54,260 nucleotides of DNA from a virus. The stretch spans positions 1-54,260 of IMG/VR virus record IMGVR_UViG_3300036861_000225; one strand, written 5' to 3'. The notes beneath the pieces were generated by a model. The model was not told the DNA's origin, did not search any database, and saw only the letters and a program-made list of their open reading frames with translations. The translations under genes were made by a program, and so were the position numbers. Shown here one piece after another: positions 1,827 to 49,509 of this stretch; the first letter of the stretch is position 1, and each line of letters starts with the position of its first letter.

Positions 1827-1855
1827 ACTATAGCAAGTGATACTTGTTAGTGCTC
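1827..1855 (-). promoter_or_regulatory. Predicted leftward early promoter with extended -10 and operator-like palindrome
   Basis: On the minus strand TGCTATAGT supplies an extended -10 (TATAGT at 1832-1827); the hexamer at 17 bp spacing (GAGCAC) is a poor -35. Immediately upstream of the -10 lies CAAGT-GAT-ACTTG (1834-1846, plus strand), an inverted repeat sharing AGCAAGTG with the palindromes in the rightward promoters. It would drive the genes from 1780 leftward. Confidence 0.5.
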
Positions 1856-1950
1856 ATTCACATGCGAGAATTTTCAGACAGAAAGGCTATGAAAGGTTGC
1901 AGCTTTATGCATCTGAAAACTTCTGATCTGACCCTTTTATCCAGGGGAAG

Positions 1951-1980
1951 TTGGCGTTCGCTCTCCCAAACTGCTACATT
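1951..1980 (+). promoter_or_regulatory. Predicted sigma-70-like promoter, near-leaderless
   Basis: TTGGCG (1951-1956), an 18-bp spacer, and TACATT (1975-1980) lie 7 nt before the ATG at 1988. A transcript would begin at or next to the start codon, and no Shine-Dalgarno sequence precedes it. It probably starts the rightward packaging operon. Unlike the other promoters of this type, its spacer has no clear palindrome. The rest of 1781-1987 shows no gene. Confidence 0.5.
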
Positions 1981-6039: not shown

Positions 6040-6068
6040 TTGTGCCTGAGCGAGTGCTCGCTTACACT
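6040..6068 (+). promoter_or_regulatory. Leaderless-type promoter with palindromic spacer, upstream of portal gene
   Basis: TTGTGC (6040-6045), a 17-bp spacer, and TACACT (6063-6068) lie 8 nt before the ATG at 6077. The spacer contains a perfect palindrome AGCGAG-TG-CTCGCT (6049-6062) abutting the -10. No Shine-Dalgarno sequence precedes the ATG. Confidence 0.6.
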
Positions 6069-6076: not shown

Positions 6077-8278
6077 ATGGCTAACCCGCTCGTCCGCCAG
6101 CTTGGGCTACAGGCAATCCTTCACCGCGACGCCGCGGCTGCGCCCGAGCCGCAGGCGATCGACGAGACAAGCAGCATGTCGGCGCTCGCGAGCCACGTGC
6201 GCGCGGCGTGGGGCCGGAACAAGCTCAGCAAGGAGCGCGTCAGCCTGAAGTTGCTCGACTGCCTGCGCGCGCGCCGCGGCGTCTACAGCCCGGCGCAGCT
6301 CCAGCAGATGATGAGCAACGGCGGGGGCATGAACATCGTTTGGGCCGACCTGACCGAGACCAAGTGCCGCGCCGCGTCGGCGTGGATTCGGGAGATCGTG
6401 CTGCCCGTGGGCGAACAGCCGTGGGGCATCGACCCGACTCCGCTGCCTGACCTGCCGATGCAGCTCAAGAAGTCCATCGTCACCAAGGCGCTGGAGCAGG
6501 CCAAGCAGACCATGATCCAGGCGGCGCAGGCCAGTGCCCCGCAGGAGCCGGACCCGAACGCGCCGCCCGGCGCCCCGCCGCCTCCGAGCCCAACCACGAT
6601 GACGCCGGGCGAGTTCCGTGATCTCGTGCTCCAGCTCGGCGAGAAGCTGCGCGACGAGGCCGAGCGCACCGTGAAGAAGATCGCGGCCACGCGCGCCAAG
6701 CGCATGGAAAAGCAGATCGCGGATCGGCTCGCGCAGGGCGGCTACGCGCAGGCGATGGATGCGTTCGTGGAGGACTTCTGCACCTACCCCGCAGCCATCC
6801 TCAAGGGGCCGATCTACACGCGCCACAAGGCGCTGAAGTGGGCGGACGGGTGGAACCCCGAGGTGTCGAACAACCCGGCGCAGACGTGGAGTCACGTCAG
6901 CCCGTTCGACGCCTATCCGGCCGCCGCGAGCCGCAGCCCACAGGAAGGCGACTTCATCGAGCGCATTCGCTTCCGCCGCGACGAACTGTTCGACCTCAAG
7001 GGCTTGCCCGACTACAAGGACGAGCAGATCGACGAGGCGCTGCGCGACTACTCGGGCGGCCACCTCGAGGGCTGGCTGTGGACCGAGGCCGAACGGCAGC
7101 GGCTGGAGCAGGAGACCATGTACATGTGGCTCTCCCCGCCGGGCGTGATCGACGCGCTCAACTACTGGGGCGGCGTGCCCGGCTGGAAGCTCAAGAGCTG
7201 GGGCGTGCAAGGCAACGCGAAGACGGGCGAGCTCGAAGACACCCGCGACTACGAGTGCAATGTGCTCATCTGCGGCAAGTACATCCTGTACGCGGCGCTG
7301 AACCCGGATCCGCTCGACCAGCGCCCGTACCGCAAGGCGTGCTACGACGAGATCCCCGGCGCCTTCTGGGGCCGCAGCATCCCCGATCTCGCGGGCACGC
7401 ACCAGAAAATGTGCAATGGCATCGCCTGCGCGCTGGCCGACAACCTCGCGATGGCGAGCGGGCCGATGGTGTGGGTGCACGCCGATCGCTTCGCCGATGG
7501 TGAGAGCACGATCGACATTTTCCCGTGGAAGACGTGGCAACTGAAGAGCGATCCGACGCAGGGCGCGAATCCCGGCATCGGCTTCTTCCAGGCGGACGAC
7601 CGCAGCGGCCCCCTGATGGCGACCTACGAGCAGTGGGAGCGCCGCGCGGACGACGCGACGGGCATCCCGCGCTACACCTACGGCAACGAGCAGGCCGGCG
7701 GCAGTGCCGACACGGCCACCGGCCTGAGCATGCTGATGAACAACGCAGCGAAAGGGCTGCGCCGCGCGATCTCGAACATCGACATCAACGTGATCGCGCC
7801 GACGATCGAGCAGACGTTCACCAACGAGATGCTCTACAACCCAGACGACTCGATCAAGGGCGACTGCATCACCGTGCCGCGCGGCGCCGCGGCGATCCTG
7901 ATCAAGGAATCGGCGCAGCAGCGGCGCACGCAGTTCCTCGGGATGACGGGCAACCCGATCGACATGCAGATCATCGGGCTCAAGGGCCGCGCGGCGTTGC
8001 TGCGCGAGACCGCAAGCGCGATGGAGCTGCCGGTCGACGAGATCGTGCCGTCCGAAGAGGAAATGGAAAAGAAGGAAGCCGAGCAGGCTCAGCAGGCTCA
8101 GCAAGCCCAGCAGGCCCAAGCGCAGGGCATGCAGGCGAACGAGCAGGCCATCGCGCAGCGCGAGTCGCAGGGCCGGCAAGAGGCGCTGATCGCCGACATC
8201 GTGAAGCAGGTGATCGCCGCGCAAGCGAAGCCGCAGCCGGCCGCTGCTGCGCCGCAGCGCCAACTCGCCGCTGCTTGA
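6077..8278 (+). CDS. Portal protein
   Basis: 733 aa, in the size range of podovirus portals. Order: N-terminal helical region, a Pro-rich linker near residues 155-175, a long central body, GNEQAGGSADTATGLSMLMN and AAKGLRRAISNIDINVIAP (the long portal helix region), and a Gln/Ala-rich coiled C-terminus (repeated AQQAQ, about residues 670-700). Portals form the dodecameric DNA channel at one capsid vertex. It follows terL and precedes scaffold and coat genes, the standard head order. The start at 6077 fits the promoter directly upstream; there is no ribosome binding site. Confidence 0.88.
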   Translation: MANPLVRQLGLQAILHRDAAAAPEPQAIDETSSMSALASHVRAAWGRNKLSKERVSLKLLDCLRARRGVYSPAQLQQMMSNGGGMNIVWADLTETKCRAASAWIREIVLPVGEQPWGIDPTPLPDLPMQLKKSIVTKALEQAKQTMIQAAQASAPQEPDPNAPPGAPPPPSPTTMTPGEFRDLVLQLGEKLRDEAERTVKKIAATRAKRMEKQIADRLAQGGYAQAMDAFVEDFCTYPAAILKGPIYTRHKALKWADGWNPEVSNNPAQTWSHVSPFDAYPAAASRSPQEGDFIERIRFRRDELFDLKGLPDYKDEQIDEALRDYSGGHLEGWLWTEAERQRLEQETMYMWLSPPGVIDALNYWGGVPGWKLKSWGVQGNAKTGELEDTRDYECNVLICGKYILYAALNPDPLDQRPYRKACYDEIPGAFWGRSIPDLAGTHQKMCNGIACALADNLAMASGPMVWVHADRFADGESTIDIFPWKTWQLKSDPTQGANPGIGFFQADDRSGPLMATYEQWERRADDATGIPRYTYGNEQAGGSADTATGLSMLMNNAAKGLRRAISNIDINVIAPTIEQTFTNEMLYNPDDSIKGDCITVPRGAAAILIKESAQQRRTQFLGMTGNPIDMQIIGLKGRAALLRETASAMELPVDEIVPSEEEMEKKEAEQAQQAQQAQQAQAQGMQANEQAIAQRESQGRQEALIADIVKQVIAAQAKPQPAAAAPQRQLAAA

Positions 8279-8304
8279 CGGTGAGCGTGCGCTCACGTTA
8301 CAGT
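8275..8304 (+). promoter_or_regulatory. Leaderless-type promoter with palindromic spacer, downstream of portal gene
   Basis: TTGACG (8275-8280), an 18-bp spacer, and TACAGT (8299-8304) lie 7 nt before the ATG at 8312. The spacer begins with a perfect 7-bp-arm palindrome GTGAGCG-TG-CGCTCAC (8281-8296). The -35 overlaps the portal stop codon. This is the best of the five promoters of this class. Confidence 0.65.
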
Positions 8305-8311: not shown

Positions 8312-8584
8312 ATGCGGTTGAGTGAGCCCCAACTCCTGTTCTTGGCGCGATTCGCGAAGTCGCCCGAAGGGAAGGAATTCACCGATCTGCTGCGAGCCGA
8401 GCTCGCCGAAGTGGAGAAGGCATTGCGCACCCAGACCGGGGAAGAGCTGTACCGGCAACAAGGGCACGCGCAGCGGCTGGACAAGCTGATTGCCGACATC
8501 ACCGACGCGAGCGCCAAGCTCACCCGCAACCAGTCAGCGATGACGCCTCGACGGTTTGCGTTCACTGACGGACCCGCCCTGTAG
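8312..8584 (+). CDS. Hypothetical protein, 90 aa, between portal and scaffold
   Basis: ATG at 8312, 7 nt after the predicted -10, with no Shine-Dalgarno sequence. The product begins MRLSEPQLLFLARFAKSPEG and is largely alpha-helical (TDLLRAELAEVEKALR). Small proteins at this position in podoviruses are sometimes head-assembly accessories; I recognise no family. Confidence 0.7.
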   Translation: MRLSEPQLLFLARFAKSPEGKEFTDLLRAELAEVEKALRTQTGEELYRQQGHAQRLDKLIADITDASAKLTRNQSAMTPRRFAFTDGPAL

Positions 8585-10958: not shown

Positions 10959-10970
10959 TCGAGCAGAAGA

Positions 10971-10992
10971 GAACCCCGCTTCGGCGGGGTTC
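10971..10992 (+). terminator. Rho-independent terminator after the capsid genes
   Basis: Nine-bp stem GAACCCCGC/GCGGGGTTC closed by a UUCG tetraloop, followed by TTCGTTG. The U-tract is short, so termination may be partial. It separates the highly expressed coat unit from the first HNH gene and its own promoter. Confidence 0.75.
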
Positions 10993-10999
10993 TTCGTTG

Positions 11000-11028
11000 T
11001 GGACGGTGAGCAAGTGCGCACATACAAT
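11000..11028 (+). promoter_or_regulatory. Leaderless-type promoter with palindromic spacer, upstream of HNH gene
   Basis: TGGACG (11000-11005), a 17-bp spacer, and TACAAT (11023-11028) lie 6 nt before the ATG at 11035. The spacer holds GTGAGCA-AG-TGCGCAC (11006-11021), a near-perfect copy of the palindrome at 8281-8296. The sequence ACGGTGAGC is shared exactly with the 8275 promoter. Confidence 0.6.
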
Positions 11029-11034
11029 CGTGCG

Positions 11035-11526
11035 ATGTTGACCGCTGAGCGTCTTCGCGAGCTGCTGACCTACGATCCCGAAACTGGGATCTTCACGTGG
11101 CGCTGCGATCGAGGCGGAAAAGCACGCAAAGGAACCCGCGCCGGATCGGTCAGTGACGACGGATACGCAAGGATCGGGGTTGACGGAAAGAGCTATCTTG
11201 CGCACCGACTCGCTTGGCTATACACCCACGGCAGCTGGCCGGCGGCCGAGATCGATCATCGCCTAGGCGCGAAAGCCGACAACAGAATCCATGAGCTGCG
11301 TGAAGCGACGCACGCGCAGAATCTGCAAAACCAGCGCCGCGCGCGTTCAGATAGTCGCAGCGGATTGCTGGGAGTTTCCCGACGTGGCAATCGGTGGCGG
11401 GCCACGATAAAGCACCAGGGCCGATACCGGCACCTCGGGAGCTTTGACGCGAAAGAAGCCGCTCACGAGTTCTATCTCCTCGCAAAAGAGATGGTTCACC
11501 CTTTCGGCGCAAGCCAAGGAGACTGA
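11035..11526 (+). CDS. HNH-AP2 homing endonuclease, copy 1
   Basis: 163 aa. N-terminal YDPETGIFTWR block, HNH region DGYARIGVDGKSYLAHRLAW through EIDHRLGAKADNR and LREATHAQN (about 44-100), then an AP2-type DNA-binding domain SGLLGVSRRGNRWRATI (about 110-150). Such genes are self-mobile and cut intron- or intergene-less alleles in related phages. It has its own promoter; the start at 11035 is chosen from the promoter position and alignment with the other copies. It is inserted between the coat unit and the head-tail genes. Confidence 0.88.
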   Translation: MLTAERLRELLTYDPETGIFTWRCDRGGKARKGTRAGSVSDDGYARIGVDGKSYLAHRLAWLYTHGSWPAAEIDHRLGAKADNRIHELREATHAQNLQNQRRARSDSRSGLLGVSRRGNRWRATIKHQGRYRHLGSFDAKEAAHEFYLLAKEMVHPFGASQGD

Positions 11527-11527
11527 A

Positions 11528-11935
11528 ATGATTTCGGAATCGATGGAGCAGATGGCGTCTGAAGCCCGCGGCAAGAACCGCCAAGACAAGCGCGTTCCGC
11601 TGCTGATCAACCGCGACAACCTGCGCCTGATGCCCAACACGCCGTTGATCCGCAAGCGACCCGCTTATATGCCCTACGACGGGAAGGCCACGGACGACGA
11701 GGCCACGCGCCGCCGCTACGTCGAAGGCACCGGCAGCCACCGGCCGCGTGTCGTCAACAGTCAGGCCGAAGCCGACGTGTTCGACATCGGCAAGGCCACG
11801 AAGGACGAACTCGTTGCGTTCGCCCTGTCCGAGTACGGCCGCATGCTCAATCCTGAGACCGACATCCGCACGCTGCGCAAGGAGTTCATGGCCTACGTGA
11901 ACACGCTGCCGGGCGGCGGTGAAACCCTGAGCTGA
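11528..11935 (+). CDS. Hypothetical structural protein, 135 aa
   Basis: ATG at 11528 with AAGGAG 6 nt upstream; the HNH gene ends just before. The product begins MISESMEQMASEARGKNRQD. The C-terminal part (KATKDELVAFALSEYGRML, then DIRTLRKEFMAYV) resembles small helical SAP/HeH-like modules often seen in phage head-completion proteins. Function unassigned; position suggests a capsid or connector accessory. Confidence 0.7.
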   Translation: MISESMEQMASEARGKNRQDKRVPLLINRDNLRLMPNTPLIRKRPAYMPYDGKATDDEATRRRYVEGTGSHRPRVVNSQAEADVFDIGKATKDELVAFALSEYGRMLNPETDIRTLRKEFMAYVNTLPGGGETLS

Positions 11936-34190: not shown

Positions 34191-34969
34191 CAACTCACAC
34201 ATTTGAGCACCATCTTCCATGCTTCGGCGGCCTCGTTCGGCCGCCAGTTGAAGAACATGCACCGCCACAGCAGCTCAAGCCGATTTTGCGGGGTGTAGGG
34301 CTTGCCGTCCAGCCATGTTGCCGCGCCGTCGCTCGACTCGAACGGAACCCCAGCTACGCAAGCATCGAGCGCCACGTTCGAGTGCCGGCACACGACAAGC
34401 GACGCACCCTTGAGCACATGCTCGATCGGCGAGCTCGCGTCGATCAGCGAGCACGGGATCGTAGGGTACGAGCGCCCGGGCTTCGGCCGAAAGATGATCT
34501 GATGCTTCGGGAACCGCCGCTTGAGCTTGCCGAGCGCCACGAGTTCCCAATGCGGGTTGTCGGTGATGGCGCGCGTCTTCGGGCCCATACCCGCGAGGAT
34601 GATCGGCCCCTTGGGGTCGTAGTCGTTGCGCAGCGGCAAGTGGAGCTTGTCCCATCGCGAGCTGTCGCGCGGTGCGCGATCAAGCAACTTCTGGGGGTGC
34701 CAGTCGTTGACCGAGAACCGCATGCCGCCGATGAAATCCTTCGTCGCAAAGTAGCCCATATCCCAGAGCACCGACGTGCCGCCGCGCGCCCGGTGCGCTT
34801 CGACTATCTTCATGCGCTCGGGGTCGCCGACACCATAGGTCATCAGCACCGCGGCGCGGCCGGTTGGCTTGTCGACAGCAGCGTGCGGCACTGGCGCCGC
34901 GGCGGCGAGCGCGCGGAGCATGCGCTCGCCCTTGTGGTGCATGTTGGACTGGATCAGGATCTCGATCAC
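34190..34969 (-). CDS. Glycosyltransferase-like protein (capsule/LPS type), 259 aa
   Basis: GTG at 34969 overlaps the stop of the upstream gene (GTGA). Begins MIEILIQSNMHHKGERMLRA; GPIILAGMGPKTRAITDN, KHQIIFRPKPGRSYPTIP and SLVVCRHSNVALDACVAGVP are like the nucleotide-sugar binding half of GT-B capsular polysaccharide transferases. One of four related proteins in this cluster. Confidence 0.68.
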   Translation of the reverse strand: MIEILIQSNMHHKGERMLRALAAAAPVPHAAVDKPTGRAAVLMTYGVGDPERMKIVEAHRARGGTSVLWDMGYFATKDFIGGMRFSVNDWHPQKLLDRAPRDSSRWDKLHLPLRNDYDPKGPIILAGMGPKTRAITDNPHWELVALGKLKRRFPKHQIIFRPKPGRSYPTIPCSLIDASSPIEHVLKGASLVVCRHSNVALDACVAGVPFESSDGAATWLDGKPYTPQNRLELLWRCMFFNWRPNEAAEAWKMVLKCVS

Positions 34970-35808
34970 AGCCCCTCCAACCATTCGCGGTAGTTCGCCG
35001 CCACGCTCGCCAACGTGAATGGCGCGGCGCGCATCTCGGTCGACACGTGATGCCGCACCGAGGCGTCGGCGAGCGTATCGAACGCATCGTGGAGTTCGGC
35101 CTTCGTGTCGGCCCAGGTCGCGGCCGAGTTGTCGGTCTCCAGATACCCGGCCTCGCGGTTGCAGACGATCGGCGTGCCTGAGCCCTGCGCATTCGCCAAC
35201 TTGACGTTGGACTTCCAATGCTTCGGGGCGTAGCCGTCCGCCTCGCGAAGAGCAACCACGATGTCGAGATCGGCGAGCGTCGCCGGCTTCGTGACGAAGC
35301 GCCAGCCGCGGCGCGTGCACTCAGCTTCAAGGATCTCCTGCCACTTGCCCAGGTACTGCACGCCACCCTCATAGCCCACGGTCTCGACGACGCGGCGCAC
35401 GGGGTTGATTGGCTGACCCGGGCGCGCGTGGTGCGGCAGCGTGAGCACCGGGGCCTTGAACCCGGTCTCACGGATGTCTTCGACCATTGCGCGCGTCGCG
35501 GCGACGAGCGCATGCGGCTTCAGCAGCTCGATCTGGCTCTTGAGCCAGCGCAGGCACGCGCCACGGTCCCACAGATTGCCGTGAGGCTGCGGCCACGCAT
35601 CCACGATGTCCCACACGATCGGGATGCGCTGCGCGCGCATGGCCTCAACGGTGCGGGAATCGATGCGCTTGACGATGACCCCAAGGTCCATGTGCTTCGC
35701 GGGGCGTGCGTGCGGGATGGTGGTCGCGCCGATCGCGGTGCCAAGTTGCTCGCCGCGGATCTTCCAACTGCCGGACTTGCCGTTGCCGGTGATGAGGATG
35801 CGTTTCAA
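34966..35808 (-). CDS. Glycosyltransferase, GT4-like, 280 aa
   Basis: Begins MKRILITGNGKSGSWKIRGE. IPIVWDIVDAWPQPHGN and HALVAATRAMVEDIRETGFK resemble the N-terminal GT-B domain; KSNVKLANAQGSGTPIVCNR matches the donor-binding loop preceding the conserved glycine/proline turn of GT4 enzymes. Overlaps its neighbours by 4 nt on both sides. Predicted to transfer a sugar from a nucleotide donor; acceptor unknown. Confidence 0.72.
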   Translation of the reverse strand: MKRILITGNGKSGSWKIRGEQLGTAIGATTIPHARPAKHMDLGVIVKRIDSRTVEAMRAQRIPIVWDIVDAWPQPHGNLWDRGACLRWLKSQIELLKPHALVAATRAMVEDIRETGFKAPVLTLPHHARPGQPINPVRRVVETVGYEGGVQYLGKWQEILEAECTRRGWRFVTKPATLADLDIVVALREADGYAPKHWKSNVKLANAQGSGTPIVCNREAGYLETDNSAATWADTKAELHDAFDTLADASVRHHVSTEMRAAPFTLASVAANYREWLEGL

Positions 35809-36035
35809 TCGATCACCTTCATCTCAGTGATGAAATAGGCTTTGCCGTCCTTTGAGCCGAAGGCTTCCAGCAGGGCGCCGGAACGATACATCGGCGCCTC
35901 CCACTTCATCGCACCGCCGGAGGCTTCGCACGCAGCCCTCGCCGACTCCAGTCGGGCGAACAGACCGAGAGCCGCGTACCCGTTCGAGCAAATTTGCCCG
36001 TCGTCCCATGTCGCTTCTGCTCGGTAGATGATCAT
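35805..36035 (-). CDS. Hypothetical protein, 76 aa
   Basis: ATG at 36035 has GGGAG 8 nt upstream, preferred over the upstream ATG at 36050. MIIYRAEATWDDGQICSNGY begins a small alpha/beta protein ending in YFITEMKVID. No family recognised. Coupled to the GT4-like gene by ATGA. Confidence 0.65.
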   Translation of the reverse strand: MIIYRAEATWDDGQICSNGYAALGLFARLESARAACEASGGAMKWEAPMYRSGALLEAFGSKDGKAYFITEMKVID

Positions 36036-36039
36036 CGCT

Positions 36040-36135
36040 TCACTCCCCATCCAAGTACCTCACTGCGCGCGAGGAACACTTGCCCGTCGATTGCGGCCGA
36101 CGGAACTTGCGCTCGAATTGCTCGTGAGGGGTCAT
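36040..36135 (-). CDS. Microprotein, 31 aa
   Basis: ATG at 36135 overlaps the stop of the upstream gene (ATGA). MTPHEQFERKFRRPQSTGKC is basic and hydrophilic. It lies 4 nt before the ATG of the 76-aa gene and could serve mainly for translational coupling. Weak case; too short for confident assignment. Confidence 0.4.
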   Translation of the reverse strand: MTPHEQFERKFRRPQSTGKCSSRAVRYLDGE

Positions 36136-36893
36136 GCCAGTAGCCTCCTAAATGCTTCGCCGCTCTCGACTTCGGACATGCTCCACTGAGCCCACGCCAA
36201 GCGCCGGAACATCGCGAGCCGCATGTCGTCGCGGCGGAGCGGCCCCTTCTTGAACTCACCTAGCGAATGGCACGCCAGCGCGCCGATCCACGATTGCATG
36301 CCGTAGAACACAGGCACGCCCATCATCAAAGCCTTGATCGCGGCGCCCGAGCTCCACGTCGCAACGCTCGATGCGCGCGCCAAGTCCTCTTCCAGCGTCG
36401 GGCCGTCCTTGTTCGTGCCGGGGTGCCGACGGATGCGCCCCTTGGTCGTGCTCACCGCGAGATTGAGCCAGCCGTCCGGTGCGCGCAGGCCGGGCTCGCC
36501 GATGCCGCGCTGCGCGAGGATGACGCATTCGCCGCCGGGCTTGCGCCACGGCGCGAGATTCACGCCCCACGAGTCCCAGCGCTCGGGGCCGCCATTCGGC
36601 CAACGGCCGGCGCCGTTGTGGTGGTTGTGCGCGATCGCGAACGACTGCTCGCCACGCCACTCCTTGCCCAGATAGCCGTTCTCCACGACGAGCACCTTCG
36701 CCTTCGCGGCCTCGAACTCGCGAGCGCGGGAGTGGCCTTCGCCCATGCGGTTCCACGTAACTATGAGGTCTTTAGAACTGGGATTCGCTACCATCCGGTC
36801 TGTGGGCGTGTAGCCAACGGCGCGCAGCCCCGCCATGAAGGCCTCGCGGCGGTAATGCAGGCCCGACCGGAACAGGACGACAGCGCGGCTCAC
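36132..36893 (-). CDS. Glycosyltransferase-like protein, 253 aa
   Basis: Begins MSRAVVLFRSGLHYRREAFM. AKVLVVENGYLGKEWRGEQS, GGECVILAQRGIGEPGLRAP and SVATWSSGAAIKALMMGVPV are shared in style with capsular polysaccharide or Kdo-type GT-B transferases. It sits between the HNH gene and the smaller proteins of the cluster. Assignment at fold level only. Confidence 0.6.
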   Translation of the reverse strand: MSRAVVLFRSGLHYRREAFMAGLRAVGYTPTDRMVANPSSKDLIVTWNRMGEGHSRAREFEAAKAKVLVVENGYLGKEWRGEQSFAIAHNHHNGAGRWPNGGPERWDSWGVNLAPWRKPGGECVILAQRGIGEPGLRAPDGWLNLAVSTTKGRIRRHPGTNKDGPTLEEDLARASSVATWSSGAAIKALMMGVPVFYGMQSWIGALACHSLGEFKKGPLRRDDMRLAMFRRLAWAQWSMSEVESGEAFRRLLA

Positions 36894-38643: not shown

Positions 38644-39119
38644 TCGGGGACTGTAGCATTTGCTTCGCGCTCGCGCAACTCAAGTTCGAGTGCCGCGAGC
38701 AGGTTCCAGATCATTTGCGCACGGTGAAGGCAACCGGTCTGGGCGTCGACCCGTTCGCCTGTGCCGAACGAAAGCGCGTGTCGGCCGAAAGCATCCATGT
38801 ACCTCTCTTCGCCGTTCGGCACGGATGCCCACCCGTTAGGTGTGTACTTGGCCGCACCGACGGTCGTGACCTTGGCCACCTCGTCGATCGCGCGCGCGAA
38901 CCCGGCAATGCACAACCATACCCGGGTCTTTCCTGCGTCGAGTTTCGCGCCGGGCGTGTGCGCGTCGACTCCGTTAGGGTCGGCTTCGGCGAGCAGCGTG
39001 CGCGCCGGTCGGCAGGCCCGCTCATACCCATCTTTGTTCAGGCTCGGCGACCAGACAACCTCCACGTCGCCCACGACCGGGCACGGTTCGCCATCAGGCC
39101 AAGGAACCCAATCACTCAT
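38640..39119 (-). CDS. dATP/dGTP diphosphohydrolase-like protein (DUF5664/MazZ type)
   Basis: 159 aa. PGAKLDAGKTRVWLCIAGFA, VTTVGAAKYTPNGWASV, RYMDAFGRHALSFGTGERVD and TGCLHRAQMIWNLLAALEL form the DUF5664 domain (residues about 55-150), an all-alpha MazG-like fold. Members related to MazZ hydrolyse dATP/dGTP and supply nucleotides for 2-aminoadenine DNA. No PurZ gene is visible in this window, so a general dNTP-pool role is the safer reading. Confidence 0.75.
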   Translation of the reverse strand: MSDWVPWPDGEPCPVVGDVEVVWSPSLNKDGYERACRPARTLLAEADPNGVDAHTPGAKLDAGKTRVWLCIAGFARAIDEVAKVTTVGAAKYTPNGWASVPNGEERYMDAFGRHALSFGTGERVDAQTGCLHRAQMIWNLLAALELELREREANATVPE

Positions 39120-41851: not shown

Positions 41852-42180
41852 CTCGGGTTCCTCTGCTGACTCAGTTTCGAATTCTCGCTGCGGGTTTCCA
41901 GGGTCCAGTGATCGGGGTTGATGCAGAGCGTGTTGCCGCACCGGTGCTCGGTGGTCTGGGTCTCTGGATCGAGCGGTACATCATGGAACTGCTGTTCCAT
42001 TTCGCGGTGCGCGGCGACGGTCACGAGCTCGCCGTCGACGCGCTTGTTCAGGCGGCCGTAAGGCCAGCGCTTGCCGCACGTGCGGCCGGTCCATACCCAG
42101 CACCCGTTCTCGTTCTGGTCCTCGGGCTTTTCGCTGTTCGCAACGAGCCTCTGGAACATCGTCACGTACTTCTGCGCCAT
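41818..42180 (-). CDS. HNH endonuclease (non-AP2 type)
   Basis: 120 aa from ATG 42180, which overlaps the regulator stop (TGATG). NGCWVWTGRTCGKRWPYGRL, VAAHREMEQQF, TEHRCGNTLCINPDHWTLET and ENSKLSQQRNP form a complete HNH homing-nuclease domain of a family distinct from the four AP2-type copies. It overlaps the VRR-NUC gene, so it is built into the operon. Confidence 0.85.
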   Translation of the reverse strand: MAQKYVTMFQRLVANSEKPEDQNENGCWVWTGRTCGKRWPYGRLNKRVDGELVTVAAHREMEQQFHDVPLDPETQTTEHRCGNTLCINPDHWTLETRSENSKLSQQRNPRWPPKARSEKR

Positions 42181-42503
42181 CAGGCCGCTCGCATACGCCA
42201 CACGCTCGATCGGTGCACGCCCGTGCTCGCAGCGATCTCCCGCACGCTGCCGGCTGCGGCGCGCACTGCCTCGATCGGTCGCCCAGGTGGCAGTGCCACG
42301 GCGGGCGCATCGAGGATGCCCGCGCCCACGCCGAGCAGCACAGCATGCGGCAGCGTGGACGCGCCAAGGTTGCGCTTGATCTTCACGATCGCGTCCTCAA
42401 CGGCCGACTCGGTAATGCCCAGCAGCGGCGCGACTTGCTTGAGCCGGTTCCCTTGCGCGATGAGTGTCAGCACTTCGCGCTGGCGTTCGGTGAGCTGCCT
42501 CAT
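42180..42503 (-). CDS. LuxR-type HTH regulator, 107 aa
   Basis: ATG at 42503 overlaps the preceding stop (ATGA). Residues 1-48 (TERQREVLTLIAQGNRLKQV, then LLGITESAVEDAIVKIKRN) are a GerE/LuxR helix-turn-helix; the C-terminal VREIAASTGVHRSSVWRM reads as a second short HTH. It has no receiver domain. Its location in the replication operon suggests control of the early-to-late switch (inference). Confidence 0.72.
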   Translation of the reverse strand: MRQLTERQREVLTLIAQGNRLKQVAPLLGITESAVEDAIVKIKRNLGASTLPHAVLLGVGAGILDAPAVALPPGRPIEAVRAAAGSVREIAASTGVHRSSVWRMRAA

Positions 42504-42769: not shown

Positions 42770-44943
42770 CCCTTCTCGTAGCGCTTGGTTGTGAACCCTG
42801 CCGCTGCGAGCGGCAAGCCCTGATTCCATCCTAAATCACTGCACATGAGTGTAGCAAGTGCTTCGTGCGAAAAAGCGTCCGTGTCGGGGGTTTCCGTGAC
42901 GAGCTCGTCGTGCACGCCGAAGATCACTTCGTAGCCGGCCGCTTCCGCAAGAGGTATGCCGCCTGCCAGTTGATCGCGAGCCACGGCTTGCGTGACGTTC
43001 TCGAATAGCTTGCCCCCGTAGGTCTTCGTCGGGCCCCATTGCTTCGTGTACGGGTTGAGCCCGATGAAACTGATCTTGTCGCTCTTGTCGATCGTCGGCG
43101 AGAAGTAGCACAGCGCCCGGCCGCTGGGCAGACCGATGCGCAGCCAAGAGCCATCGCGGCGTACCTTGAGCTTGCGCACTTGGAGAGTGACACTGGGCGT
43201 CGCGATCGCGGTACGCACGGCGTTCTCCAGTTCCTTCCAGAGCGAAGAGATAGCGGGATGCGCCTTGCGCCACAAGCGTTTGATCGCGTCGCACGCGATG
43301 AAGGTCTTTTCGGAGAGACCGTAGCGCGCCTTGAACTTCGCGGCCTCCGGGTCTTTCGATCCCTCGGGAACCGTGTCATACAACCACCGCAGGAAGCCCT
43401 CTGCCTCTTCCTTCTCGGTCTCGGGCAACACATCCCACACGGCTTCCGTCATGGCCGCGAGATCGATGCCGTAGGTCGCAGCCCCGGTGATCCACGCGCC
43501 AACGCCGCCTTGGTACTGAAACATCAGTTCTTCGACTTTGCCGATCTGGCGCTGCTCCTTGTTCACGTCATCAGGGCTGACATTAAACGACTTCGCGTAG
43601 GCGAGCTTGTAGAGGTCGGGCCCCTCGCCCGTGTCGTAGTCGCGGAACGCTTGCAGCTTCCAGTCCTCACCGGCGAGCCAAGCTGCGACCCGGCCCTCGA
43701 TGTTCGCCAAGTCGGCGATGACCAGCTTGCGGCCCGGCGGCGCGATGATGGCGCCACGCACGGCCGCACCGGCGAGCGCGCGCACGTTGCTGTGGGTCAG
43801 GTCTTCCGCGCCCGCGAGCATCGCCTCGATGCCCGTGGTGACGTACTCGTGGATGTGGTGATCCTTGATCGCGGTCTTGTCGATGCCGTGCCACTGCGCG
43901 ATGACGTCGACCGGCGGGCGCATCAGATTGCCCGGCTGGAACATGCGGTGAGCCCAGCGGCCCGTGCGGCTCGCGCCGCAAAACTGCTGGAGACCGCGCA
44001 GCCGGCCGTCGCTGCTCACGCCGTTGAGCAACGCCGTGTACTTCGATGCGCTGTTCATGGACGCTTGCAGCCGGATCGCGAGCAGGTCGCGCACGCTCTG
44101 AGGCAGGTCCGGGTCGTTCATGCGCCGCTCAAGCGTGTCGGCCTTCATGTCGGGCAGCGTCACGCCATGCGCGTCGAGCACGTAGGCCAACAGCGCATCG
44201 CGCTGCGTGGTGCTCGCGACTGCACCCTCGGTGATCTCCGAGGTCTGGTCCGCGAGCTTGTCGAGTGAGGATTTGGCCGCGCGCACCGCGGCGCGAGCGA
44301 GATCCTGGTCGACGAACGCCCCGCGGGCGTTGATCTTCAGGTCAAGGTGCCACAGCGCGAGCTCGGCGCCCTTGTAGTTCCACATTGGCACGCGCCGGTG
44401 CACCTCGCGCATCGCCTCGATGTCCTGGCCAGCGTAGGCGACGAACTCGGCCCACTCCGCGGGGTGCGTCTTCGCGGTCGCGCGCCGCGTGCCGTGCTTC
44501 TTGAAGAACGCATCGTTCTGCGGTTTGCAGAAGAGGTGGATCAGGTTGCGACCGCCGGCTGACTTGCGCTTGCCCTGGTCGAGGCGCAGCACCTCGCCGA
44601 GCGTGCCCAGCGCGCCGGGCAACCCGTGGCAGTAGGCTTGCACCATCGTGTCGCGGCGCCGGTGCATCGGGATGCGCGCCGCCACCTCGGGCATCGCGTG
44701 TTCCAACACAACGAAGTCGAAGGCGCCGCCATTGTGGAACCAGATCAGGCACTCAGGATCGTCGATCGACTCGTCGAGCGCCGTGGGCATGCGTTTGCCG
44801 CTGGTGATGTCCCACACGTCAGTCGCGCCGTCGTCGATCGCGTAGGCCCAGATCATCACCTCGGCATCTTCGGCGTATCGGTGCGTGCCGTGGGTGATCG
44901 GGACCGGAGAGAAGGTCTCCAGATCGGAGAAGTTGTCACGCAC
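42766..44943 (-). CDS. DNA polymerase, family A, with 3'-5' exonuclease domain
   Basis: 725 aa. Exonuclease: SDLETFS (D7, E9), NGGAFDF (D76), YAGQDIEAM (D174). Polymerase: motif A VIADLANIEGRVAAW (D at about 411; the usual SQIELR is replaced by ANIEGR), motif B region QIGKVEELMFQYQGGVG, motif C GVHDELV (H678, D679, E680). Full length and catalytically intact; replicates the phage genome. The ANIEGR variant occurs in a phage subfamily. Confidence 0.93.
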   Translation of the reverse strand: MRDNFSDLETFSPVPITHGTHRYAEDAEVMIWAYAIDDGATDVWDITSGKRMPTALDESIDDPECLIWFHNGGAFDFVVLEHAMPEVAARIPMHRRRDTMVQAYCHGLPGALGTLGEVLRLDQGKRKSAGGRNLIHLFCKPQNDAFFKKHGTRRATAKTHPAEWAEFVAYAGQDIEAMREVHRRVPMWNYKGAELALWHLDLKINARGAFVDQDLARAAVRAAKSSLDKLADQTSEITEGAVASTTQRDALLAYVLDAHGVTLPDMKADTLERRMNDPDLPQSVRDLLAIRLQASMNSASKYTALLNGVSSDGRLRGLQQFCGASRTGRWAHRMFQPGNLMRPPVDVIAQWHGIDKTAIKDHHIHEYVTTGIEAMLAGAEDLTHSNVRALAGAAVRGAIIAPPGRKLVIADLANIEGRVAAWLAGEDWKLQAFRDYDTGEGPDLYKLAYAKSFNVSPDDVNKEQRQIGKVEELMFQYQGGVGAWITGAATYGIDLAAMTEAVWDVLPETEKEEAEGFLRWLYDTVPEGSKDPEAAKFKARYGLSEKTFIACDAIKRLWRKAHPAISSLWKELENAVRTAIATPSVTLQVRKLKVRRDGSWLRIGLPSGRALCYFSPTIDKSDKISFIGLNPYTKQWGPTKTYGGKLFENVTQAVARDQLAGGIPLAEAAGYEVIFGVHDELVTETPDTDAFSHEALATLMCSDLGWNQGLPLAAAGFTTKRYEKG

Positions 44944-45262: not shown

Positions 45263-45455
45263 TGCATGACCTCCTGCATTTTGGTGGGGGACCGCGCAGA
45301 CGGTTCTTACTGCGGCGATGCACCGGGGCCCAGCAAGCCGAGCCATCCCTCACCAAAATGCTGCCCCTTACGGGGGCAAGTCGCCAGTGCTGTAACTCAC
45401 TGGGGACCGGCCGCAGCCGGTGGCTTCAGGCCTGCGGGTAGCAGGCCGTTGGAAG
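45263..45455 (-). ncRNA. Structured RNA candidate / riboswitch-like leader between ssDNA-binding and polymerase-side genes
   Basis: No gene is seen in this 193-nt gap. In transcript order (minus strand) it holds GGCCTGC/GCAGGCC (7 bp, 45447-45429), ACCGGC/GCCGGT with a tetraloop (45421-45406), CCAGTG/CACTGG (45403-45384), TGCCCC/GGGGCA (45378-45362), and a closing 11-bp helix GCATTTTGGTG/CACCAAAATGC (45361-45351 with 45286-45276). That helix encloses 64 nt with at least two further hairpins (GGCTC/GGGCC and CGCAG/CTGCG). It ends directly against the AGGAGG ribosome binding site. Confidence 0.6.
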
Positions 45456-46097
45456 TCAGCTCAAGTCGTCGGCGTCGCTGCCGTCCGCCACTTCGCCGAA
45501 CGCCTCGGTCACCGGCGCCGTGGCGCCGCTGAACGCATCGCCGTCGCGCAGGCGCTGGATGACCATGAGCGTTGCGCGCAGGCCCTTGCCGGCCTTGTTG
45601 TCCTGCGCCCAGAGCTCGACTTGCGCGTTGACGTACATGCCCGAGTAGATGCGGCCGGCCTTGCCCGACAGCAGCGCGCCGCTGGCGCGGTCGTAGACCG
45701 GCGACAGGTCCGTGTCGATCACGATCGGGCGCTGCTGGTCCTCGGTGCGGTGCGAGGCCAAGATCCAGACGCCTTCCACGTCCTTGCGCGCACCGTCTTG
45801 CCAGCAGCAGCCCTTGGGGTCGGGCAGGATGTTGGCGAGGTGCATCTTGGCCTTGTCGTTCCACTTCTCGGTGGCGACCTTGACCATCGCGTCATCGATG
45901 AACTTCTTGGCGGCCACCGGCGAGCCGACGACCTTCTTGTCGATCACGAACTGCGCGAGGCTTTGCGGGCCGATGTGGAACGAGGCGGACCAACGCCGCT
46001 TGTCGTTCTCGCGCTGCTTCTGACCCTGGAAATACTCCGGGGCGTCGAGCTTGGGATAGGAGAGGCGAACGTCTTTCAGGAGAACAACGAGACCCAT
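45456..46097 (-). CDS. DUF2815-type single-stranded DNA-binding protein
   Basis: 213 aa from ATG 46097 with AAAGGAAAG upstream. VVLLKDVRLSYPKLDAPEYF, RRWSASFHIGP, GKAGRIYSGMYVNAQVELWA and an acidic tail (GSDADDLS) match the DUF2815 family, phage proteins with an SSB-like OB fold. Expected to coat ssDNA during replication and to partner with the RecB-like nuclease and polymerase in the same operon. Confidence 0.82.
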   Translation of the reverse strand: MGLVVLLKDVRLSYPKLDAPEYFQGQKQRENDKRRWSASFHIGPQSLAQFVIDKKVVGSPVAAKKFIDDAMVKVATEKWNDKAKMHLANILPDPKGCCWQDGARKDVEGVWILASHRTEDQQRPIVIDTDLSPVYDRASGALLSGKAGRIYSGMYVNAQVELWAQDNKAGKGLRATLMVIQRLRDGDAFSGATAPVTEAFGEVADGSDADDLS

Positions 46098-46152
46098 GAT
46101 GGGCTTTCCTTTCGGGTTTGTGCAAACGGCTTACGGCTTGCGGGTTGGGGAA

Positions 46153-46503
46153 CTAGAAACCGGACGGCTGGGCGACGGCGCGCGTGAGCGCCATCAACCC
46201 CTCTTGAAAGTGCGTGCGCGCGATCGCGGCCCAGCGCTCGGGCTCGGCGCGGTTCAGGCGTGCTTTCTCGGCGTGTGCGCGCTGAAACGCTGTCGGCGGG
46301 TCGCCTTCCGCAACAGTTTCAGTTTCGCCTCGATCGATGATTTCTTTCTGCGCGTACAGGTTCATGCCGGTCCGGTGCCGGACCTTCGCGATCAGTGCCT
46401 CGATCTCGTGACCCTTGGCCTTGATCTCGTTCATCAGCGCTGCCTCGGCTTCATTCAGCTGGCGATAGCCCGTGATCTTGGGTTGGGTGAAGGTTTCCAT
46501 CAT
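46153..46503 (-). CDS. Acb2/Tad1-type cyclic-nucleotide sponge (anti-CBASS/anti-Thoeris)
   Basis: 116 aa from ATG 46503 (AGGAG upstream; ATGA overlap). ITGYRQLNEAEAALMNEIKA with KGHEIEALIAKVRHRTG, and the closing RWAAIARTHFQEGLMALTRA, then VAQPSGF, reproduce the Acb2 hairpin signature. Acb2 proteins form hexamers that sequester CBASS and Thoeris signal nucleotides. A 30-residue polar insertion (from NLYAQKEII to NRAEPE) separates the two helices. Early expression before the ssDNA-binding gene would suit a counter-defence role. Confidence 0.85.
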   Translation of the reverse strand: MMETFTQPKITGYRQLNEAEAALMNEIKAKGHEIEALIAKVRHRTGMNLYAQKEIIDRGETETVAEGDPPTAFQRAHAEKARLNRAEPERWAAIARTHFQEGLMALTRAVAQPSGF

Positions 46504-47804
46504 GCAAGGTTCTCCTGTTCAGGTTCAACTGCGAACCCGTCCGCTGACAGCTCGGGCGGGGTGTAGGGCTTCTTGATCTGGGCCGTGGGCTTCACGCTGG
46601 GCTTTGCCGGCGAGCGACTGATCAGCGGTTGGAGCTTCGCCCACTGCTTGCCGCCAAGCGCGGCCTTGCCTTCGGGCGTGTCCTTCGTCATCTTCTCGAC
46701 GCTGGTCGGACTCTTGAGGCTCAGATCGAACGCATCCTCGATCTTGAGACGGAAGGTCTTGCGCAGGAGATCCTCCACCGCGCCCTCATCATTCCATTTG
46801 CGCGCGCCCTCGCGACCCAGCTCCAGACCGAAGCCTTCGACGGCTTGGCCGGCGAGCAGACGTCGCTCAACTTCGGCGCGCACGGCTTTGATCCAATCCT
46901 CGATCATGCCGGTGGCGGCCATCGATTCCGCGAGTTCATCCGCCGCAGCGGGGATGCGCACGGTAGCCTCTTCGTTGATGACGGTGAAACTGCCCGCAAA
47001 GCTCTGCACCTTGCGCGTCATCGCGGGGCACGTCGCCATCGCGCGGCAGAAGCGGCAGTCTTCCTCGTTCGGGTCTGGGTGCAGGTAAGTCTGCGCCCAA
47101 GCGTCGAGACCGTCGCCGCTCAGGCCGGGCAGCGTGATCGTGGCCTCTTCGACCTTCGCGGCGCGCGCCTTCGCGTAGTCCGCGAACACGAGCAGGCCGT
47201 CGACGCTGATCGTCCACTCGGACAAGCCGCCGTGCTTCGGCTGGTAGATGCCGATGCGCACGCTGCGGATGTCGTAGGCCATTTCCAGCTCGGCGTACGC
47301 GCCCAGCGCGTAGAGCATGCCCTGGCTGTTGTTCTCGGGGTCGACCTTGACCCATCCGGTCTTGAGATCGATCACGAACAGTTCGTATCCGCCCTCGTCG
47401 AGCGGAATCAGGACGATGCAGTCCGCAGTGCCGAACTGCCCGGGCACGCCGACGTACTCGCTGAAGTCGACGCGGTGCTCGATCAGCATCAGGTTGCCGA
47501 TACCGAGCGCGCGCACGGTGTCGACGTAGCCCTGCGTCAGCTCGGCCATTTCCTCGGTGAACTTCACGGTGCGCGTGAGCTCGCCCGGGGCGTGCACCGG
47601 CACCAGCGTACCGATGGCCTTGGTCGCGCGCCAGTGCTCGGTGAGGCACATTTTCGCGACCGTGTGCATCGCGGTGCCGTCGTCGCTGGCACCGTTCGCG
47701 GTGTTCGGGTAGGCAGACTCCAGCGCGATGCGGCCGGCGCACTTGAGCCAGCCCTTGCTGGCGCTGGGGGACAGACGCGCGTGCTGTTCTTGGTGTTCGG
47801 TCAT
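46500..47804 (-). CDS. RecB-like PD-(D/E)XK nuclease (DUF2800)
   Basis: 434 aa from ATG 47804 (ATGA overlap). HARLSPSASKGWLKCAG with Cys22, GTADCIVL (D128), LFVIDLKTG (D146, K148), SQGMLYALGAY (Q161) and C-x2-C-x5-C (CRFCRAMATC, about 252-261) give a RecB/AddB-type nuclease with a probable four-Cys Fe-S staple. It probably produces ssDNA for the neighbouring ssDNA-binding protein. The C-terminus is Lys/Pro-rich and disordered. Confidence 0.88.
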   Translation of the reverse strand: MTEHQEQHARLSPSASKGWLKCAGRIALESAYPNTANGASDDGTAMHTVAKMCLTEHWRATKAIGTLVPVHAPGELTRTVKFTEEMAELTQGYVDTVRALGIGNLMLIEHRVDFSEYVGVPGQFGTADCIVLIPLDEGGYELFVIDLKTGWVKVDPENNSQGMLYALGAYAELEMAYDIRSVRIGIYQPKHGGLSEWTISVDGLLVFADYAKARAAKVEEATITLPGLSGDGLDAWAQTYLHPDPNEEDCRFCRAMATCPAMTRKVQSFAGSFTVINEEATVRIPAAADELAESMAATGMIEDWIKAVRAEVERRLLAGQAVEGFGLELGREGARKWNDEGAVEDLLRKTFRLKIEDAFDLSLKSPTSVEKMTKDTPEGKAALGGKQWAKLQPLISRSPAKPSVKPTAQIKKPYTPPELSADGFAVEPEQENLA

Positions 47805-48019
47805 TGCGGTTCCCACATTCCCTCAACGGAGATCGTCGAGCCGTGCATGTATTGGATGGCTTCGCAGCCCTTGATTGCGCCGGCCTTGCGCTTGTACGCC
47901 TCGCCGCTCTCCGCGATCACGCGGCCATTGCGCGCGAAGAGGCGCCAGCGCCAGCCATCCTTGGCGCGGTACACGTCGAAGACGTACGGGAACTGCGACT
48001 TGGGGCGGGGCGGCTTCAT
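47801..48019 (-). CDS. DUF1508-like protein, 72 aa
   Basis: FDVYRAKDGWRWRLFARNGR followed by VIAESGEAYKRKAGAIKGCE is one DUF1508/YegP-type repeat. The family is found in bacteria and phages without a settled function. Overlaps neighbouring genes by 4 nt. Confidence 0.78.
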   Translation of the reverse strand: MKPPRPKSQFPYVFDVYRAKDGWRWRLFARNGRVIAESGEAYKRKAGAIKGCEAIQYMHGSTISVEGMWEPQ

Positions 48020-48168
48020 TTCTTCACCTCCGCGAGCAGCAGATCGGTGAGCCGCACTGCTTCCTTCACGAGATCCGCCTCCGAAGGACCGAGCGGCTTG
48101 TTCGTGAGCCGTGCGGCGAGCAGGATCGTCGCGACGATCTGCCGCTCGTGTTGCTGGTCTTCGTTCAT
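48016..48168 (-). CDS. Small helical protein, 50 aa
   Basis: ATG at 48168 with GGAGGG 9 nt upstream; preferred over the longer upstream start. The product begins MNEDQQHERQIVATILLAAR and is all-helical, ending in LLAEVKK. No family recognised. Coupled to its neighbours by overlaps. Confidence 0.62.
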   Translation of the reverse strand: MNEDQQHERQIVATILLAARLTNKPLGPSEADLVKEAVRLTDLLLAEVKK

Positions 48169-48311
48169 CGGGATATGCCCTCCAATGGGTGCAAATGCGA
48201 GCGCAGGCTCAGGTGCAGCGCGAAGAGGCCGCAGCACACGCGCCGGTGGTGCTCGGCCGGACTACGCAGCCCGGCACTCATCAGCGCGGATGCGAGCGGC
48301 GTCAGGTTCAC
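48165..48311 (-). CDS. Small protein, 48 aa
   Basis: GTG at 48311 overlaps the upstream stop (GTGA) and its stop overlaps the next ATG. The product begins MNLTPLASALMSAGLRSPAE and includes CCGLFALHLSLRSHLHP. Supported by overlaps and by filling an otherwise empty stretch of a tightly packed operon; no family. Confidence 0.5.
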   Translation of the reverse strand: MNLTPLASALMSAGLRSPAEHHRRVCCGLFALHLSLRSHLHPLEGISR

Positions 48312-48760
48312 GCCATCGACTCGTTGGCGTCAGCGGCGAGCTTGTCGAGCACGAGCACGAGCTCGGGGCGATCGGCCGCCTTCACGTCCTGGCCGGTCTT
48401 CACCAGTGTGCCGTACTTCTCGGCGAGCGTGGCGAAGAACGCCTTGATGCCGGTGCGGTTCGCAGCGCTGTTCGGGTTGCTCACGGCCACCATTTCGGCG
48501 ATGCGCTGACCGATCGGAGCGTAGGGCAGCTCAGCGGATTCGGTGGGCGGGGTCTCGGGCGCAGCGGGAGCCGGGGCCGGCACCGGGGCGGCAGAAGGCG
48601 GCGAAGCCGCAGGCTTGTCCGCCTTGGCAGGCTTTGGGGCCTTGGTCTCCGCGGGAGCCGGCGCGGTAGCGGCCGCCGCGGCCGCCGCGGTCTTGTCCCG
48701 GGTCAGGTACGCGATGGCTTCGTCCATGTTGGCGAAGGTGAGCTTGATCTCGACGGTCAT
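48308..48760 (-). CDS. Hypothetical protein with Ala/Pro linker, 150 aa
   Basis: Begins MTVEIKLTFANMDEAIAYLT. A small N-terminal domain is joined by an Ala/Pro/Lys-rich linker (about 25-75) to a C-terminal helical part (ANRTGIKAFFATLAEKYGTL). The architecture suggests a modular DNA- or protein-binding early protein; no family recognised. Confidence 0.68.
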   Translation of the reverse strand: MTVEIKLTFANMDEAIAYLTRDKTAAAAAAATAPAPAETKAPKPAKADKPAASPPSAAPVPAPAPAAPETPPTESAELPYAPIGQRIAEMVAVSNPNSAANRTGIKAFFATLAEKYGTLVKTGQDVKAADRPELVLVLDKLAADANESMA

Positions 48761-48975
48761 GTGTTGCCTTTCTGTTTGGCGGTGAGGAATTGGATGCGGC
48801 TGGTGAGGCTCGCGCGTTCCGAGCGCAGCCCGCCGATGTACCAGCGCAAGCAGCGCGCGTCTTCATGGCGAAGCTCAAGCATCGCGTCGGCGTAGTCGGT
48901 TTCGGTGTCCACGATTTCGTGGTCGACAAGGCGCAGCTTGAAGCGCGCGGCCCAGAGGCGCAGGGAGGTGATCAT
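48757..48975 (-). CDS. Hypothetical protein, 72 aa
   Basis: ATG at 48975, 7 nt after the preceding stop. The product begins MITSLRLWAARFKLRLVDHE; the C-terminus is basic and helical (SERASLTSRIQFLTAKQK). No family recognised. Overlaps the next gene by 4 nt. Confidence 0.62.
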   Translation of the reverse strand: MITSLRLWAARFKLRLVDHEIVDTETDYADAMLELRHEDARCLRWYIGGLRSERASLTSRIQFLTAKQKGNT

Positions 48976-48982
48976 TGCGAAC

Positions 48983-49204: not shown

Positions 49205-49238
49205 ACGGTTCCCGGCTTTCGGCGTGTTGTGGGTCGGC

Positions 49239-49267
49239 AGACTAACTGCCGTATCAAATGCTGTCAA
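49239..49267 (-). promoter_or_regulatory. Canonical leftward sigma-70 promoter of the replication operon, with operator palindrome
   Basis: On the minus strand TTGACA (49267-49262), a 17-bp spacer, and TAGTCT (49244-49239). A 6-bp-arm palindrome CGGCAG-ACTAA-CTGCCG (49235-49251) covers the -10, a likely repressor site. It would drive the operon from 49204 down to 33050. Confidence 0.75.
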
Positions 49268-49272
49268 GCGTT

Positions 49273-49479: not shown

Positions 49480-49509
49480 TTGCAGTATGCACGGAGCAAG
49501 TGCTACAGT
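49480..49509 (+). promoter_or_regulatory. Leaderless-type promoter with palindromic spacer, upstream of Cro-like gene
   Basis: TTGCAG (49480-49485), an 18-bp spacer, and TACAGT (49504-49509) lie 8 nt before the ATG at 49518. AGCA-AG-TGCT (49495-49504) abuts the -10. It is the same class as the promoters at 6040, 8275 and 11000, which suggests autoregulation by the gene it drives. Confidence 0.6.

Follow-up and report, generated by a model that had tools for sequence, protein, structure and literature searches.

The palindromes that lie in several promoters of this virus are probably operators of an 87-aa Cro-like (YdaS/HTH_3-type) protein encoded from position 49518, which would block the promoters that bear them. 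The analysis covered a virus record of 54,260 bases with a GC content of 64.8%, referred to here as the window. The portal, capsid and terminase genes are on the forward strand, as is the primase/helicase near the right end, and the polA, exonuclease, helicase and ssDNA-binding genes are on the reverse strand. The nearest named relatives of the portal protein were HMO-2011-like phages of Rhizobium, Roseobacter, Pelagibacter and Puniceispirillum, with identities of 22-31% among the best 20 matches, and many uncultured relatives were closer than these named phages. A near-identity phage search gave no match for positions 1-25000 and short matches for 25001-50000, those listed lying at methyltransferase genes. 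The four genome-contig matches obtained were contigs of metagenome-assembled genomes from different phyla or families, and no host was assigned. The integrase family PF00589 had no match in the window and was over cut-off in one of 13 records (G004), while no CI-type repressor was found among the 50 window proteins, a subset of the ORFs, that were scanned against PHROGs. The HMO-2011-like phage CRP-3 is described as able to integrate in the available part of PMC6918029.

The initial annotation listed four palindromes, and all four sequences were found at their positions (Table 1). Downstream of each comes TACA[CGA]T, with the ATG of an ORF 6-8 nt further on; these ORFs are the portal gene at 6077, the 90-aa gene at 8312, the HNH gene at 11035 and the HTH gene at 49518. 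The common layout proposed for them, with AGC around a two-base centre, held for three sites, but the portal dyad had been given in another register (AGC-N8-GCT); the register common to the other three sites and to relatives is AGCG-AG-TGCT at 6049-6058. The portal, 8281 and 11006 palindromes lie in the spacer next to the -10, as had been described, but that at 49495 overlaps the -10 itself. Three further sites, absent from the initial annotation, were found on the minus strand, at 38652 and 42850 with the same core and at 1829 with ATC-N4-GCT. As bare palindromes the sites are statistically modest. Shuffling of the 45 bases upstream of each ATG gave palindrome p values of 0.026 for the portal site, 0.004 for 8281, 0.037 for 11006 and 0.385 for 49495. 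The 8281 dyad has only 4-5 of 6 pairs in the orthologous promoters of the closest relatives, as read from their sequences. Since the 11006 and 8281 sites both have GACGGTGAGC, they may stem from one promoter by duplication and are not fully independent.

The sites form two classes, class E lying over the -10 and class L in the spacer. In class E the -10 begins within the right half, GCTAYA, which takes in its first four bases. The dyad of class L occupies the spacer, with its AGC standing 14-15 bases ahead of the -10, as at 6046, 8281 and 11006. The core AGC-N4-GCT is common to both classes in the window, and the outer bases are GTG..CAC in class L as against CGR/TGT..ACA in class E. The class E site at 42850, which is conserved in G001, lies inside polA at its 3' end and precedes both 42500 (minus strand) and the GerE-like gene. 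The class E-like site at 1829 leads to leadered minus-strand genes at 1589-1780 and 379-1389, and in its place G001 has TGTAGC-GTTT-GCTATA. The class L-like site at 1950 is doubtful given its palindrome p of 0.914; its counterpart in G011 is clearer (CGAAGC-AGGC-GCTCAC) and is a hybrid of the two classes.

Table 1. Palindromes, candidate operators and genes of the window, and dyads in the HTH promoters of related genomes
Feature	Sequence	Position	Strand	Remarks
Portal palindrome	AGCGAGTGCTCGCT	6049-6062	+	
Palindrome	GTGAGCGTGCGCTCAC	8281-8296	+	Perfect 7-2-7 dyad
HNH palindrome	GTGAGCAAGTGCGCAC	11006-11021	+	6/7 pairs
Cro-like gene palindrome	AGCAAGTGCT	49495-49504	+	4-2-4
Class E candidate operator	CGGAGC-AAGT-GCTACA	49492..49507	+	-10 TACAGT 49504-49509; HTH gene ATG 49518; same geometry in family members
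Class E candidate operator	CGAAGC-AAAT-GCTACA	38652..38667	-	-10 TACAGT 38655-38650; 6 nt to ATG 38643 (73-aa gene)
Class E candidate operator	CGAAGC-ACTT-GCTACA	42850..42865	-	-10 TACACT 42853-42848
Class E-like candidate operator	AGTATC-ACTT-GCTATA	1829..1844	-	-10 TATAGT
Class L candidate operator	GTGAGC-GTGC-GCTCAC	8281..8296	+	Between TTGACG 8275-8280 and TACAGT 8299-8304; ATG 8312
Class L candidate operator	CTGAGC-GAGT-GCTCGC	6046..6061	+	Upstream of -10 TACACT 6063-6068; portal ATG 6077
Class L candidate operator	GTGAGC-AAGT-GCGCAC	11006..11021	+	Between TGGACG 11000-11005 and TACAAT 11023-11028; HNH ATG 11035
Weak class L-like site	GTTGGC-GTTC-GCTCTC	1950..1965	+	Upstream of -10 TACATT 1975-1980; gene 1988
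Portal protein		6077..8278	+	phrog_332 E 2.5e-55; PF23899 over cut-off
90-aa protein, function unassigned		8312..8584	+	Between portal and scaffold-like gene; no PHROG; weak Pfam coiled-coil match below cut-off; orthologs in most relatives
HNH endonuclease		11035..11526	+	phrog_99 E 2.4e-57; PF13392
GerE/sigma-region-4-like protein, 107 aa, plus second HTH		42180..42503	-	PF00196, PF13384, PF08281 over cut-off
Cro-like HTH protein, 87 aa		49518..49781	+	C-terminal CKGCEYAKAC tail; proposed repressor
HTH own-promoter dyad, G001	TAGAGC-GAAT-GCTACA			
HTH own-promoter dyad, G050	CGGAGC-ACAT-GCTACA			
HTH own-promoter dyad, G010	TGCAGC-AAAT-GCTACA			
HTH own-promoter dyad, G040	TGCAGC-ACCT-GCTACA			
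HTH own-promoter dyad, G017	CGGAAC-AAAT-GCTACG			Imperfect
HTH own-promoter dyad, G013	TGTATC-AGAT-GATACA			
HTH own-promoter dyad, G006	TGTATC-AAGT-GCTAAA			
HTH own-promoter dyad, G007 and G009	GTTATC-AAGT-GGTACA			Imperfect
HTH own-promoter dyad, G008	CTTATC-AATT-GGTACA			
HTH own-promoter dyad, G005	CTGGTC-AACT-GGTACA			Imperfect
HTH promoter dyad, G014	TGTATC-GTTT-GATACA			Farther upstream than in other members

A search for TACANT together with a start codon showed 6-8 nt between the end of the -10 and the ATG at 1988, 6077, 8312, 11035 and 49518 on the plus strand and at 38643 on the minus strand. A transcript begun at the usual distance from such a -10 would have no space for a ribosome-binding site, and the mRNAs from these promoters are thus probably leaderless. 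Both boxes of the 8312 promoter, -35 and -10, come close to consensus, and the spacing is 17-18 bp at 8275-8304 and 11000-11028. The layout was followed in 60 distinct upstream regions from 8312-type orthologs with a usable start codon, contig duplicates and G-labelled copies being removed. A -10 with at least 4 of 6 matching bases at 4-10 nt was present in 54 of them, compared to 7.4 for shuffled sequences, and both boxes were present in 42, compared to 1.1. Most relatives keep the 90-aa 8312-type gene, and its promoter looks leaderless in nearly all cases.

The protein encoded at 49518 matched PF01381 (HTH_3) with an E value of 1.5e-4 and 22.1 bits, just under the cut-off of 23, and its ortholog in G001, which is 93% identical, scored 26 bits and was over the cut-off. 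It also matched PHROG 35, transcriptional repressor, with an E value of 1.9e-5. Comparison of the family profile with solved structures gave as closest relatives 8co2 (E 8.5e-6 over 58 positions) and 8c7k (E 1.1e-5) of YdaS from the CP-933P prophage, also a small Cro-type regulator. The AF2 model was all-helical with a pLDDT of 81. Foldseek with this single model returned a weak list, with a best E value of 0.18, that included YdaS, lambda and P22 repressor chains; the similarity to the YdaS fold had a TM score of 0.68-0.69 and, within this weak list, an E value of about 0.3. The profile of the family, termed HTH-Cys for its C-terminal CxxC tail, found a match in 14 of the 47 relative contigs searched, that in G023 reaching only E 2e-4. 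With the window counted, the family was present in 10 of the 12 genomes longer than 50 kb. Scans of all viral contigs for an operator followed by an ATG gave mostly chance matches. Among the matches listed, the TGTATC pattern had no HTH-Cys protein in 90 distinct downstream ORFs, and the GAGC-N4-GCTACAST pattern had two in 89, the known G001 and the new L360/G050; a third ORF of the latter scan, at E 0.92, was left out of this count. A Lar-like restriction alleviation protein is encoded at 49786-50163 in the window, directly after the Cro-like gene.

The proposal that the Cro-like gene would be autoregulated is well supported by its homologs, whose own promoters show a dyad of the same geometry in the same place that recurs in their non-coding DNA. 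The right half of this dyad is at or beside the -10 in 12 of the 14 HTH promoters read, with a family consensus of TGYAGC-N4-GCTRCA or TGTATC-N4-GATACA; the HTH promoter of G004 was unreadable. The left and right halves change jointly between clades, AGC/GCT in some and ATC/GAT in others. An extra family member in a metagenome-assembled genome, reached via L426, has TGGAAC-ACAT-GCTACAGT immediately before the ATG. The bare dyad reached p < 0.05 only in G010, G013, G014, G040 and, at a different place, G008. With this conservation the protein very probably has its own operator in the class E site of the HTH gene that encodes it.

The recurrence of the dyad was measured in the non-coding DNA of 14 genomes by a protein-blind enumeration that took in each of the 4096 six-base half-sites at gaps of 0-8. 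The dyad of the HTH promoter was top-ranked in three, G014 (4 copies, 0.006 expected), G010 (4, 0.021 expected) and G040 (3, 0.012 expected), and G007 and G008 had a shifted form (GTATCA, gap 2) within their seven highest ranks. In the other nine genomes, the window included, the enumeration was topped by other sequences. When up to two mismatches were allowed, the non-coding DNA of 13 genomes contained 29 further operator sites compared to 7.0 +/- 2.75 for permuted half-sites (maximum 15 in 300); G004 was omitted from this count as its HTH start was unreadable, and G013 contributed 0 as an erroneous gene call hid its site, which lowers the total. In the window alone, 2 other sites resembling the HTH operator were found compared to 1.07 for the permuted half-sites, which is not significant. 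Copies of the operator were located at the divergent operon beside the HTH gene in G006, G007, G008, G010, G014 and G040, and upstream of the 1988-type gene, at the start of the packaging block, in G014, G020 and G006. A leaderless-looking HNH promoter in G010 carries the exact HTH operator, TGCAGC-AAAT-GCTACAGT-agaccg-ATG, the HNH assignment being made from the sequence as read, without a family search. Other copies were away from the -10, for example covering the -35 in G014/G020, or differed in spacing.

Further repeats were also noted. G004 contains 32 copies of CGGCCCGGGCC at 45365-49908, all in predicted coding sequence and mostly in one repetitive stretch, G017 has CGGAGAC repeats at multiples of 18 bases at its contig end (44329-44642), and G013 has 7 exact copies of TCCGTC-N5-GACGGA dyads at 34689-36567, all within predicted coding sequence.

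A genome-wide search for the motif, which the initial annotation had placed in promoters, gave no overall excess and some genic matches, but the motif was concentrated at promoters. With up to three mismatches the whole genome contained 20 matches compared to 18.9 expected, and the strict core AGCRNNYGCT was found 9 times compared to 7.4 +/- 3.2, four of these nine being intragenic without a nearby -10. Genic sites with this core include those at 17332 and 25811. A looser pattern gave 100 matches compared to 76 +/- 9, and in 12 relatives the 2-mismatch pattern was about as frequent as a reversed control. Counts of all dyads on whole genomes were swamped by GC-rich dyads, for which restriction to non-coding DNA helped. 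The motif is not frequent overall, and a genome-wide excess would be the wrong claim. The two strands of the window contain only 13 TAYANT hexamers, and AGC-N4-GC[TG] was present within -22 to +1 of six of them (6063, 8299, 11023 and 49504 on the plus strand, 42853 and 38655 on the minus strand) compared to 0.31 +/- 0.54 at random positions (maximum 3 in 2000 draws), the pattern having been picked after the sites were seen and the two minus-strand hexamers being outside the initial annotation. The longer string GCTAYANT occurred six times, and in four of these the left half, N4 away, read [AG][GT]C.

The initial annotation also proposed that one repressor controls structural and homing genes together. 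The HNH promoter of G010, with that genome's own Cro-like operator, is consistent with the part of this proposal that concerns homing genes. A symmetric class L matrix was trained on 14 spacer sites selected visually among the 8312-type promoters with the motif (L041, for example, was excluded). In the window its top score fell on 8281, a training site, and the next on a genic site at 50612; ranks three and four went to the portal and HNH sites, which had been held out. An earlier one-way matrix at a score of at least 10 gave, across all the loci then covered, 29 promoter-associated matches compared to 1.8 for column-permuted matrices, at most 14 of the 29 being training sites. The pattern AGYRNNYRCT was present in 13 of the 60 8312-type upstream regions, compared to 0.37 for shuffled sequences, so that the motif extends beyond the clade of the window. 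Palindromicity was not raised across the whole group of 8312-type promoters (5/60 at p < 0.05), and no recognisable class L dyad was found at the 8312 and portal-position promoters of the close relative L041/L006. A different dyad, GTTGCR..GCAAC, was observed in the same spacer in L082, L074, L076 and L081, and GTTGTGCACAAC in G010.

These observations bear on a rival explanation with two regulators, in which the Cro-like protein reads class E only and the spacer sites (GTRAGYR-NN-YRCTYAC) are read by another, more conserved phage or host factor. Such a factor would suit two genomes with the spacer motif: G013, which has GCAAGTGCTCACTTAC at the 8312 promoter but TGTATC-N4-GATACA as its HTH operator, and G002, in which the HTH-Cys protein was not found. 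It would also suit the difference in outer bases between the classes and the GTTGCR..GCAAC and GTTGTGCACAAC dyads at the 8312 promoters of G014/G020 and G010, which are unlike the HTH operator of those genomes. However, besides the Cro-like protein a single regulator-like protein was noticed in the window, the GerE-like one, and this was over cut-off in two of 21 records, with G013 and G002 not among them. The GerE-like protein was accordingly rejected as a family-wide late regulator, PF00196 being over cut-off only in the window and G001; the label late, as applied to these genes, is inferred from gene content. The AGC-N4-GCT core common to both window classes, the hybrid site of G011 and the HTH operator on the HNH promoter of G010 favour a single regulator, for which G013 and G002 are the difficulty. 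On this comparison the class L sites are likely to be bound by the Cro-like protein as well, and the existence of a second regulator appears rather unlikely.

The sequence conservation might instead reflect no operator at all, the shared bases being promoter elements (an extended -10 TGC and the -35) and the symmetry fortuitous. Class E sites do have TGC right before the -10, and the bare palindromes are weak, but an extended -10 needs no AGC or ATC four bases ahead of GCTA, and neither the covariation of the two halves between clades nor the copies off the -10, such as those over the -35 in G014/G020, would be expected from it; this explanation is considered very improbable. Less probable still is that the dyads serve a MerR-like or GerE-like activator of the late genes. 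MerR activators bind dyads in promoter spacers of 19-20 bp, a poor native spacing. A GerE-like gene is indeed downstream of a class E site, but the spacers here are 17-18 bp, on which MerR-type activation was rejected, the -35 hardly departs from consensus, the -10 is covered at class E sites, and GerE has the restricted occurrence given above. Promoters with near-consensus boxes at 17-18 bp should fire unaided, so that repression rather than activation is inferred as the simplest mode of action.

In the proposed mechanism the Cro-like protein, presumably as a dimer, would recognise two AGC half-sites that flank a 4-bp centre (AGC-N4-GCT). Where the right half coincides with the -10, as in class E, the bound protein would directly occlude RNA polymerase, and at the class L sites of the portal, 8312 and HNH promoters it would fill the spacer between the -35 and the -10. 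The blocked promoters, apart from 42850 and 1829, have the -10 6-8 nt before the start codon and would be transcribed by host RNA polymerase into leaderless mRNAs. As its own promoter carries a site, the repressor would limit its own level while holding down the genes it controls. At a guess, release may occur as operator copies rise with replication or as the protein is depleted.

Two arrangements of homing genes were observed. At 3741-4260 of L004 an HNH gene opens with the first codons of the portal gene (MANPL...), directly on the leaderless-looking, operator-bearing portal promoter, and downstream of this HNH gene the portal gene starts again with identical residues, so that the homing gene is on the promoter. 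At 10965-11545 of the window a hairpin, the class L promoter and the HNH gene form one unit in place of 88 bp of G001.

Several known systems resemble the one proposed. The P22 c2 protein, a lysogeny repressor with a cleavage domain, binds AAG-N4-CTT operators that have a 3-bp core on each side of N4. The N4-centred 3-bp cores are alike, and 2r1j is in the Foldseek list; the window protein is small and Cro-sized. The stoperators of mycobacteriophages are likewise many repressor sites across one phage genome, but in the accounts available they are asymmetric and also stop elongation, whereas the window sites are symmetric and in promoters. YdaS is the Cro equivalent in a lambdoid immunity region with YdaT (PMC9986795); no Cys tail was noted for YdaS, and no YdaT counterpart was seen in the window. 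In phage PY54, according to the accessible text of PMC4488713, Cro reads a 16-bp palindrome, the cI and cro mRNAs are leaderless, and from a single operator Cro suppresses cI and not its own synthesis, whereas the window has several sites, known here from sequence, one of them on the Cro-like gene itself. The phiCbK protein TgrL is an early phage XRE-type regulator, with 92 of 99 direct host targets repressed; as far as PMC10688885 was available, it was studied on host targets and not on the phage's own late promoters.

No published account of such transcription control in HMO-2011-like phages was recognised in the literature searched. The words repressor and promoter are absent from the available part of PMC6918029, which deals with these phages, and the literature found on this widespread group, as far as it was accessible, concerns genes and ecology rather than transcription control. 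The system would be a variant of Cro-type regulation not met in the literature searched for HMO-2011-like phages. A defined protein, its operator and promoters separable as 60-bp pieces would make phage timing directly testable. The family would provide natural pairs of recognition helix and operator (AGC-N4-GCT and ATC-N4-GAT) useful for the study of how Cro-type specificity evolves, as well as a case of homing endonucleases under the phage's own promoters that bear candidate operators. More tentatively, the Cys-tailed Cro-like protein may be the core timer of an uncultured HMO-2011-like lineage, a single autoregulated repressor with operators in leaderless early, packaging, capsid and homing-endonuclease promoters, whose specificity would switch by lineage from AGC to ATC cores while its place over the -10 stays fixed, and whose regulon homing genes may join by landing on promoters.
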